Of a stretch of 43,585 nt of DNA, positions 20,528 to 23,789 are shown one piece after another. How positions within the stretch are numbered: the first letter of the stretch is position 1; every line of letters begins with the position of its first letter. The notes beneath the pieces were generated by a model. It saw only the letters and a list, made by a program, of their open reading frames with translations. It was not told the origin of the DNA and made no database searches. The DNA comes from Deltaproteobacteria bacterium (GTDB taxonomy: Bacteria > Desulfobacterota > Desulfovibrionia > Desulfovibrionales > Desulfovibrionaceae). The translations under genes and the position numbers were made by a program. The stretch is from positions 1 through 43,585 of the forward strand of contig JAISDX010000136.1 in the NCBI GenBank assembly GCA_031264465.1, written 5' to 3'.

Positions 20528-21748
20528 ATGAACAAAAAATTATACATTGCCATGGTGGGGTTGCCGGCGCGGGGCAAGTCGTTTATGGCCGAGCGTTTGC
20601 GCGAAGGTTTGAGCGCGGACGGGCTCAAAGTCGGGGTGTTCAACAATGGCGACTTGCGGCGGGCGGAGCTGGGCGCGGCTTCGGCCCTGCCGGAGTTTTA
20701 CGACCCGGCCAACCGGGAAGGGCGGCGGCAGCGCGAGGATATCGCCAGGGCCAATATGTTTGAGGCCAGGGAATTTTTGGCGGAAGGCGGCAACGTGGCA
20801 ATTCTGGATGCCACCAACGGCAGCCGGGCCAGGCGGGAGTTTTTGGAGCGGAAGCTTGGGGACGCGCCGCTGTTGTTTATCGAGTGCCATAATAACGACG
20901 AGGATTTGCTGTCCCTGAGCATCAAGCGCAAGGCGAGGCTCCCGGAGTTCGCGGGCATGACCAGGGGCGAGGCCGAGCGGGCTTTCCGGCAACGCATCGC
21001 TTATTACGAGCAAATTTCGGCACCGCTCGCGGCCGGGGTGGAAAAGCGCTTCGCGCGGGTGGACACGTTCCGGAACCAGATTCTGGAAGAGCGCGGCGGC
21101 GGCGAGCTGCCGTTTTATTTACAGATTCGCGATATCATGATTGCCGACTGGATTCGCAACATGTACCTGGCCCGGCACTGCGAGAGCGAGTACAACGTGC
21201 GCGGGCGCATTGGCGGAGACTCGCCGCTCACGGCGCGCGGCATGACCCAGGCCCGAGCCCTGGCCGCGCACTTCGGCGGCGCGGAAATTCCCTATGTTTT
21301 TACTTCCACCCGGCTGCGCTCGTCCATGACGGCCGCGCCGGTGCTGGAATACCACCCGGACAGCACGCTGGTGGCCCTGCCCGAGTTTGACGAGATCGAC
21401 GCCGGCAGTTGCGAGGGCATGACCTACGCGGGGATAAAGCAGAAGATGCCCAAGGAATACGCGGCGCGCAGCCGCGACAAGTACGGTTACGTCTACCCCG
21501 GCGGCGAGGGGTACGTCAGCCTCAAGGAGCGGGTGCAGCGCGGTTTTCGCAAGGCCATGTTCCTTTCCGGCGCCGCGCCCGGCGTGCTGATCATCGGGCA
21601 CCAGGCCATCAACCGGGTGATTCTGTCGCTATTCATGTACCGGCGCAATGATTCCGTGCCCTATATTTACGTGCCGCAGGACGAATATTTTCACATCGTG
21701 GCCACGCACCGCACCAAACTTTTGGAAGTGGTCCGGTTCACCTCCTGA
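20528..21748 (+). CDS. Bifunctional 6-phosphofructo-2-kinase/fructose-2,6-bisphosphatase
   Basis: This 406-residue protein has the architecture of the eukaryotic enzyme that makes and degrades fructose-2,6-bisphosphate. Residues 1-205 form the kinase, with P-loop GLPARGKS (11-18), FNNGDLRR (38-45) and LDATN (93-97). Residues 210-406 form the histidine-phosphatase domain, with LARHCESEYNVRGRIGGDS (214-232), EIDAGSCEGMTY (289-300), DKYGYVYPGGEGY and the second catalytic histidine H358 in IIGHQAINR. The spacing and several runs closely follow the animal enzymes. The usual RHG motif reads RHC (C218). It begins 2 bases after the M24 stop without a Shine-Dalgarno sequence, so translation likely depends on coupling. 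The physiological substrate in a bacterium is unproven. Confidence 0.88.
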   Translation: MNKKLYIAMVGLPARGKSFMAERLREGLSADGLKVGVFNNGDLRRAELGAASALPEFYDPANREGRRQREDIARANMFEAREFLAEGGNVAILDATNGSRARREFLERKLGDAPLLFIECHNNDEDLLSLSIKRKARLPEFAGMTRGEAERAFRQRIAYYEQISAPLAAGVEKRFARVDTFRNQILEERGGGELPFYLQIRDIMIADWIRNMYLARHCESEYNVRGRIGGDSPLTARGMTQARALAAHFGGAEIPYVFTSTRLRSSMTAAPVLEYHPDSTLVALPEFDEIDAGSCEGMTYAGIKQKMPKEYAARSRDKYGYVYPGGEGYVSLKERVQRGFRKAMFLSGAAPGVLIIGHQAINRVILSLFMYRRNDSVPYIYVPQDEYFHIVATHRTKLLEVVRFTS

Positions 21749-21819: not shown

Positions 21820-21876
21820 AATCAAATAATCAACCTGGTTGTCTTAAAAAAACGAAACGGTGAAACCAAGGCCGGT

Positions 21877-21892
21877 GTTCAAAATTTTGAAC
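21877..21892. promoter_or_regulatory. 16-bp perfect palindrome, candidate enhancer (UAS) for sigma-54 activator
   Basis: GTTCAAAATTTTGAAC is a perfect inverted repeat with no spacer. Its centre is about 118 bases upstream of the transcription start predicted from the sigma-54 promoter. This is within the range typical of bacterial enhancer-binding protein sites. The protein that would bind is unknown. Confidence 0.55.
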
Positions 21893-21935
21893 GGAGAGAA
21901 TAAGGTCAATAGAGTTGTTATATTTTTATTTTACT

Positions 21936-21958
21936 GAAATATTTGATGTTTATAAACA
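21936..21958. promoter_or_regulatory. IHF-like site overlapping palindrome TGTTTATAAACA
   Basis: The core AA-N4-TTGAT (21937-21947) matches the reverse complement of the IHF consensus except at the two outermost positions. It lies in an AT-rich stretch between the candidate enhancer and the promoter, where IHF bends DNA at many sigma-54 promoters. The perfect 12-base palindrome at 21947-21958 abuts it and could be an additional operator. Confidence 0.4.
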
Positions 21959-21977
21959 ACGGCGTTTTTGAAAAGTT

Positions 21978-21993
21978 TGGCACGCCGATTGCT
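21978..21993 (+). promoter_or_regulatory. Sigma-54 (RpoN) promoter upstream of prfC
   Basis: TTGGCACG-CCGA-TTGCT agrees with the -24/-12 consensus (TGGCACG-N4-TTGCW) at every defined position. The invariant GG (21979-21980) and GC (21991-21992) are separated by exactly 10 bases. Transcription would start near 22003, giving a leader of about 150 bases to the prfC start at 22152. Such a promoter requires an ATP-dependent activator; see the palindrome at 21877-21892. Confidence 0.8.
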
Positions 21994-22027
21994 AAGAAGT
22001 AAATATCTTCCTTTGCAAGCAGCTTTC

Positions 22028-22066
22028 AGAGAGGCGGTTAACGGGCGGTCCGTTAGCCGCCTCTCT
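22028..22066 (+). other. 17-bp stem-loop in prfC leader
   Basis: AGAGAGGCGGTTAACGG (22028-22044) pairs with CCGTTAGCCGCCTCTCT (22050-22066) over a 5-base loop GCGGT; every pair is Watson-Crick except one T-G. It starts about 25 bases into the transcript predicted from the sigma-54 promoter. No T-tract follows on either strand, so it is not a standard terminator. The left arm contains a purine-rich GAGAGG that the stem would sequester. Confidence 0.75.
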
Positions 22067-22071
22067 GTCTG

Positions 22072-22140
22072 ATGGCAATCTGGCCGGCAAATACAAATTC
22101 ATGTTTCCAATTACTTGCCTTCCTGGCCCTGGTGCTGTAA
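22072..22140 (+). CDS. Possible 22-residue leader peptide before prfC
   Basis: An ATG six bases after the stem-loop opens a 22-codon frame ending in TAA at 22138-22140. The peptide starts [13 protein letters not shown] and ends in a hydrophobic stretch, LLAFLALVL. Its stop is 11 bases before the prfC ATG at 22152, and it is in a different frame. No Shine-Dalgarno sequence precedes it in linear sequence. A role as a leader peptide coupling translation to prfC is speculative; a chance ORF is possible. Confidence 0.3.
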
Positions 22141-22151
22141 ATCCCAGCATC

Positions 22152-23789
22152 ATGAAAAACGAAGCCAGCCTGAAGCGGGAAATCGCCCGTCGCCGTACTT
22201 TTGCCATTATCAGCCACCCGGATGCCGGGAAAACCACCCTGACCGAAAAGCTGCTCCTGTTTGGCGGGGCCATTCAGATGGCCGGCACGGTCAAGGCCCG
22301 CAAGGCCTCGCGCCACGCCACCTCCGACTGGATGGCCATGGAGCGCGAGCGCGGCATTTCCGTCACCACTTCGGTGATGCGCTTCAGCTACAACAACTGC
22401 GAACTCAACCTGCTCGACACCCCCGGCCACCAGGATTTTTCCGAAGACACCTACCGGGTGCTCACGGCCGTGGATTCCGCCCTTCTTGTCATCGACTCGT
22501 CCAAGGGCGTGGAAACCCAGACCAAAAAGCTCATGGACGTCTGCCGCATGCGGGCCACGCCCATCATTACCTTCATCAACAAGCTGGACCGCGAAGGCCT
22601 GGGCCCGCTGGAGGTCATGGCCGATATCGAAGACCACCTGGGCATAGCCTGCGCCCCCCTCACCTGGACGGTGGGCATGGGCGCGGACTTCAAAGGCGTG
22701 TACGACCTGAGCGACGACGAACTGCGCCTGTTTTCCGCCCGGCACGGCGGCCGGATTGTGGATGACAAAATCATCCTCAAGGGCCGGCACGACCCGCGCC
22801 TGGACGAATACATCACCGCTTCCGCCGCCGCGCTGCGCGACGATCTGGAACTCCTGGAAGAGGCCGGCAATCCCTTTTCCCTGGAACAATACCTGGCCGC
22901 CGAGCAAACCCCGGTCTTTTTCGGCAGCGCCATAAACAACTTCGGCGTGCAGGAGCTTTTGCGGACCTTCACCCGCATCGCCCCGCCGCCCCAGCCCCGC
23001 CCGGCCAAAGTAATGCCGGAAAAATTCGAAGAGGCCAGCGGCGCCGAACCCACGCGCCTGGTGGACCCGGCCGAGCCGGAATTTTCCGGGGTGGTTTTTA
23101 AAATTCAGGCCAACATGGATAAAGCCCACCGCGACCGCATCGCCTTTCTCCGGGTCTGCTCCGGCCGCTTCACCAAGGGAATGAAGCTGCGCCACCACCG
23201 CACCGGCAAGGACGTGGCCATCAACAACGCCACCATCTTCATGGCCCAGGACCGTAGCGGCGTGGAGGAGTCCTGGCCGGGCGACATCATCGGCCTGCCC
23301 AACCACGGCACCATTAAAATCGGTGACACCTTCACCGAAAAAACGCCCCTCAAATTCACCGGCATCCCCAGCTTCGCGCCCGAGCACTTTCGCCGGGTGC
23401 GTCTGCGCGACCCCCTCAAGAGCAAACAACTCAAAAAAGGCCTGGAGCAACTGGCCGAGGAAGGAGCCGTGCAGCTCTTCCGCCCCCTGATCAACAACGA
23501 CTATATCCTGGGCGCCGTGGGTCTGCTCCAGTTCGACCTGATCATCTCCCGCCTGGCCGACGAGTATAACGTCAACGCCAGCTACGAAATGGTCGGCGCC
23601 CACTGCGCCCGCTGGCTGCACAGCGACGACAAGGCCCAGTTCGACGACTTCAAGGACTACTACCGCAACGATCTGGCCCTGGACGCCGAAAATACCCTAG
23701 CCTACCTCGCCCCCACCCCCTGGAAACTCGAATCCGCCATGGAACGCTACCCCAAGGTGGAATTCCGCACGACGCGGGAGGTTAATTAA
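22152..23789 (+). CDS. prfC: Peptide chain release factor 3
   Basis: RF3 is the GTPase that recycles RF1 and RF2 from the ribosome after termination. From the ATG at 22152 the product has 545 residues, close to the usual 525-540. It has the G1 P-loop SHPDAGKT (21-28), the [10 protein letters not shown] switch, [11 protein letters not shown] (G3), NKLDREG (G4), and a C-terminal region closely matching RF3 ([30 protein letters not shown]). An in-frame ATG at 22101 would add 17 residues unlike the family. Neither start has a recognisable Shine-Dalgarno sequence. The gene ends overlapping the convergent methyltransferase by 8 bases through a shared TTAATTAA. Confidence 0.95.

Follow-up and report, generated by a model that had tools for sequence, protein, structure and literature searches.

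In the window, that is the whole stretch of 43,585 nucleotides analysed here, we can with good confidence read region 21876-22075 as a gene of its own, encoding a small, trans-acting, porin-silencing RNA that depends on sigma-54, accompanied by a probable direct arm at the porin promoters. The promoter of this region most likely drives a regulatory RNA of about 65-72 nt and not release factor 3.

In the mechanism that we propose, an enhancer-binding protein (EBP) would bind the dyad GGTtcAAAATTTTgaACC and switch on the sigma-54 RNA polymerase at 21978-21993. The RNA would begin near 22004 and carry an unpaired, C/U-rich seed at its 5' end and a hairpin at its 3' end. This seed would pair with the Shine-Dalgarno (SD) regions of the mRNAs encoding the Desulfovibrio homotrimeric porin (NF033939) and block their translation. 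The same EBP probably acts at the porin promoters in many genomes, which would give a feed-forward circuit. The order of events would be a signal, the EBP, sigma-54, the small RNA (sRNA) and the block of porin translation. The features concerned are collected in Table 1.

Table 1. Features of the predicted sRNA gene and its neighbour in the window.
Feature	Position	Strand	Remarks
Upstream activating dyad TGTTCAAAATTTTGAACG	21876-21893	+	83 bp upstream of the -24 TGG; exact palindrome; 18.2 bits against the family motif
-24/-12 sigma-54 promoter TGGCACGCCGATTGCT	21978-21993	+	matches the consensus; kept in congeners and at the family loci
Predicted small RNA, about 65-72 nt	22004-22075	+	both ends predicted; covariance-model match 22006-22069
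5' seed CUUCCUUUGCAA, anti-Shine-Dalgarno-like	22007-22018	+	invariant in six congeners; pairs with porin leaders
3' hairpin, loop GCGGU	22027-22067 (arms 22027-22044 and 22050-22067)	+	from folding and covariation; terminator-like, poor U-tract
prfC (release factor 3)	22152-23789	+	neighbour, probably not the target; Pfam RF3_C and GTP_EFTU

Sigma-54 promoter and upstream dyad

When the window was scanned for the sigma-54 consensus, the only match without mismatch was TGGCACGCCGATTGCT at 21978-21993, which has the GG-N10-GC spacing and the TGGCAC/TTGC consensus of sigma-54 (RpoN) promoters. Such exact elements are rare in the window's genome, where TGGCACRNNNNTTGCW gave 6 matches over 2.27 Mb versus 0 for the reversed control. 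The -24/-12 element described in the first-pass annotation was thus confirmed as exact, non-random and conserved. The same genome contains 11 EBP genes.

The first-pass annotation had also pointed to a 16-bp perfect palindrome, and this held as well: GTTCAAAATTTTGAAC at 21877-21892 is an exact palindrome that occurs a single time in the window, where 0 were expected, and a single time in the genome at 0 mismatches, and its relaxed form GTNNAAWWWWTTNNAC is found once in the window versus 0.02 expected. It is one copy of a family dyad, GGTtcAAAATTTTgaACC, which can also be written GGTTCAAAATTTTGAACC. A first unconstrained EM search of the upstream regions of 36 family loci fell onto AT-rich sequence, and a model with one site per sequence was used instead. 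The motif obtained, gGTtcAAAATTTTgaACc, was present in all 36 regions, with a log-likelihood of 252 versus 43±5.5 for dinucleotide shuffles. The distances between dyad and promoter cluster at helical-turn steps, with a phasing of about 10.5-11 bp, the sites from related genomes not being fully independent; an upstream activator site at helical spacing is thus found. Judged across these loci, the window palindrome is conserved as a motif and not as a fixed sequence. A lack of conservation of the -24/-12 element or of the palindrome in closely related genomes had been put forward as grounds for dropping the earlier reading, and both proved to be conserved. By these sequence comparisons, the promoter upstream of prfC is genuine, of the sigma-54 type and preceded by an enhancer dyad.

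The IHF-like core proposed as a bend site between them is present at 21936-21948 as written, but it has 2 mismatches to WATCAANNNNTTR. Matches of this quality number 152 in the window versus 145 expected, which is chance level; this core carries no weight, and no IHF bend site, an optional feature of sigma-54 promoters, is recognised here.

Searches of complete genomes with nothing but the dyad turned up copies of the sRNA overlooked by the RNA pattern. Most other matches to the dyad pattern that were inspected mark no promoter, and many lie within coding regions. One dyad in another genome (L127 1501-1608, G006:C15) is located about 90 bp upstream of a further sigma-54 site, ahead of a gene for a tetratricopeptide-like protein and divergent from apparent flagellar rod genes. 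The profiling of EBPs across ten genomes singled out no activator of the dyad: several orthologues are common to the genomes with the sRNA, yet they are present in genomes lacking it too. The surroundings of the EBP genes in the window's genome showed no dyad as strong as those of the family.

Conserved block and predicted hairpin RNA

When the intergenic region was searched against 39 related genomes, one block conserved in the genus was found, corresponding to window 21976-22067. This gut genus has the block in six genomes, where it consists of the sigma-54 site, CUUCCUUUGCAAGC at the predicted 5' end and a covarying hairpin, in this order. The strongest feature of the region is this hairpin, with its 18-bp stem at 22027-22067, which was absent from the features listed in the first-pass annotation. 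Folding of the leader gave a z value of -5.6. Each of the 18 stem pairs is present in every one of the six congeners (100% of cells paired), 11 of them being changed on both sides; this covariation was reached by none of 500 shuffles and was lost when the arms were slid. It is therefore the structure of the hairpin that is maintained. The 5' segment, predicted to begin about 12 nt after the -12 C, is, to judge from its conservation, maintained as unpaired sequence: the unpaired seed is the most conserved part of the unit, and its CUUCCUU...UGCA is retained across genera.

No canonical U-tract follows the hairpin in the window, and read-through into prfC is therefore possible; U-runs follow the hairpins of many other family members. 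The apical sequence GGnCGGUCC is common to several genera in spite of diverged stems (e.g. window 22043-22051, L076 and L286), which suggests a function of the loop beyond termination. None of our claims rests on the automatic hairpin caller, which misplaced the boundaries in several members.

Distribution of the RNA family

A covariance model detected the RNA in 25 of 199 genomes of the family. A pattern combining promoter and seed, scanned over one genome per named species, gave about 36 full loci in Nitratidesulfovibrio, Pseudodesulfovibrio, Humidesulfovibrio and gut Desulfovibrionaceae. Nearly all of them are in records labelled Desulfovibrionaceae or Deltaproteobacteria, and the remaining matches, without hairpin and dyad, look like chance. 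With a relaxed pattern applied to 348 genomes of the order, the unit was found in most members of one genus (g5, Pseudodesulfovibrio by matching sequences), in up to four copies, with tandem arrays in which the copies are about 300-420 bp apart and each has its own promoter; this pattern also gives chance matches in other genera, so that its total should not be read as a prevalence. Rfam, including Qrr, gave no match, the best E-values being 0.62-0.84, far below the gathering scores.

One full member with dyads (L055 6709, WRKB01000277.1) is carried by a contig labelled Betaproteobacteria. The series of termite samples that yielded this contig also yielded a Desulfovibrionaceae bin, and the contig may be mis-binned or reflect a transfer. 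The window's genome contains further exact -24/-12 sites at G000:C148:3361 (L016 1501-1600) and G000:C103:3015 (L014); within the next 40-150 bases or so, each shows terminator-like hairpins bearing U-runs and no obvious gene start. These are candidates for further sigma-54 small RNAs without the dyad.

Porin leaders and porin promoters

In the window's genus, complements of the seed occur at about chance level overall, and the search was informative only because one match was the SD sequence of the outer-membrane homotrimeric porin NF033939. About 55 porin leaders were extracted from 22 genomes, and seeds and leaders were found to match genus by genus. Thus, in G085 the RNA CAUCCUUCUUUGUUUUGCA is perfectly complementary over 16 nt to the porin leader GCAAAACAAAGAAGGA, and in G014 CUUCCUUCUUUUGCA faces UGCAAAAGAAGGAAG over 15 nt. 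In G092 and G110, six or seven A's before GGAAGA in the leaders match the U-runs of their own sRNA copies.

Over 17 genomes, not all independent (six are from one genus and three from another), the cognate seed-porin duplexes had a mean energy of -20.5 kcal/mol versus -16.35±0.64 for permuted pairs (p = 5e-5). A background of 524 leaders with an SD sequence, taken from other genes, served for comparison. The best porin leader ranked within the top 2% except in three genomes, and in ten genomes it was equalled or bettered by only 0-2 of these background leaders. The pairing was moderate in G001 and G003, where 5-7% of the background leaders do as well. In the window's genome (G000), the one porin with an assembled leader gives a weak duplex (-12.8), 30% of the background being as good, and the leader of the second porin, a gene truncated on contig C166, lies beyond the contig end. 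A conserved unpaired seed with genus-matched complementarity to the target SD is therefore found across genera, and is weak in the window's genome. From this complementarity, the RNA family appears to block the SD sequences of porin mRNAs. No link between an sRNA and a porin was found in the literature searched on Desulfovibrio.

In addition, with p <= 0.05 as the cutoff, a dyad matrix trained solely on the sRNA genes recognised 26 of the 54 regions upstream of porin genes, where 2.7 were expected. In the complete genomes G086 and G110, five of the six strict dyad sites are at sRNA or porin genes. The presence of the dyad upstream of porin genes points to a probable direct effect of the same protein on porin transcription. 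By eye, the porin dyads are near sigma-70-like elements, so that the protein may either repress or activate there. For the window's own genome a porin arm is presumed; its assembled porin upstream region has no dyad by the sRNA-trained matrix. Some genomes in which no sRNA was detected still carry porin dyads. In one of these cases (G120, L343), a porin leader GCAAAAGAAAGGAAGG has an upstream dyad and the pattern found no sRNA, which may thus have been missed.

Neighbouring genes and alternative readings

According to the first-pass annotation, the promoter would set the level of release factor 3. Following this idea, it would drive a long mRNA that carries prfC behind a structured leader, and release factor 3 would respond to an RpoN signal. 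The genes are on the same strand, prfC starts about 85 bases past the hairpin end and lies downstream in two congeners too, and the U-tract is weak in the window's genome. However, the gene follows the block in only three of the six congeners, at variable distances (about +148 in G000, +187 in G002 and +595 in G005), its place being taken by hypAB in G001 and G006 and by an unrelated convergent gene in G003. In other genera the unit adjoins serS, aminotransferase genes and others (names read from the translations, with no family search). The unit recurs in many genera, also as tandem copies a few hundred bases apart, and many other members have U-runs after their hairpins. Regulation of prfC was rejected on this synteny, and we consider a long prfC mRNA quite improbable. 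The expectation that the element would be conserved upstream of prfC in relatives was borne out for the element, but only half of the genomes have prfC behind it; the aside that an RNA in the leader might be what responds was the right half of the proposal, the conserved block being a promoter, a seed and a hairpin RNA that is self-contained.

A sigma-54-dependent small RNA with targets other than porins, its seed being generally anti-SD or protein-binding, is unlikely in our opinion, even if the seed resembles any anti-SD sequence, its complements are near chance in the window's genus and the porin pairing is weak in the window's own genome: seed variants specific to a genus fit their own porins, up to the perfect 16 nt of G085 and the 15 nt of G014, and the same dyad is found at porin genes. 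The hairpin is also an inverted repeat in the DNA and matches the covariance model on the minus strand, as would be expected of a conserved DNA element only (a bidirectional terminator or a protein-binding inverted repeat) next to a string that resembles a promoter by chance. We regard this as extremely improbable, since promoter, seed and dyad are kept at near-fixed spacing outside the hairpin and the part under the strongest conservation is the unpaired seed.

Directly upstream of the region, at window 20528-21748, lies a gene for a 6-phosphofructo-2-kinase/histidine-phosphatase fusion (6PF2K and His_Phos_1), an architecture best known from eukaryotes.

Discussion

The Qrr1-5 RNAs of Vibrio (LuxO/sigma-54) are trans-acting RNAs with a terminator hairpin, made from sigma-54 promoters with upstream EBP sites and present in several copies per genome. 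The porin-silencing gene proposed here shares with them the sigma-54 promoter with upstream sites, the multiple copies and the predicted trans-acting hairpin RNA, but differs in clade, sequence, dyad and predicted target, and has no counterpart in Rfam. The enterobacterial MicF, RybB, MicA and OmrA/B silence porins through a 5' seed complementary to the porin ribosome-binding sites, and are made from sigma-70 or sigma-E promoters. Such a seed is also predicted here, and the dyad, found at sRNA genes as well as at porin genes, is reminiscent of the logic of OmpR-MicF-ompF, in which a regulator box is present at both; in contrast, the promoter is of the sigma-54 type and the porin family is NF033939. 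To our knowledge, sigma-54 has no known link to porin control by an sRNA.

In D. vulgaris Hildenborough, ncRNAs under the EBPs DVU0653, DVU0679, DVU1419 and DVU2359 have been reported to depend on sigma-54 (PMC4641369; Dv_sRNA2 in PMC3333781), and the accessible text of these reports describes them without targets or sequences. They share the sigma-54 dependence predicted for the present RNA and the bacterial family of the window's organism. The ncRNA upstream of DVU3282 (DVU1419 regulon), reported in 2015, may, as far as that text goes, be a member of the family described here. No EBP gene was found in the scanned flanks of the Nitratidesulfovibrio loci, so these loci do not fit the EBP-adjacent ncRNAs of D. 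vulgaris. The literature searched yielded no described sRNA target for Desulfovibrionaceae sulfate reducers.

The matches between seeds and porin leaders offer direct, testable targets, and the dyad gives a handle on the activator. Furthermore, the tandem multi-copy arrangement provides a natural comparison for dosage control of the Qrr type. On balance, and with some reserve, we favour the existence in Desulfovibrionaceae of an outer-membrane circuit in which one sigma-54 EBP would bind the porin promoters and fire multi-copy short RNAs, the seeds of which would co-evolve with the porin ribosome-binding sites, sigma-54 standing in place of sigma-E or OmpR.
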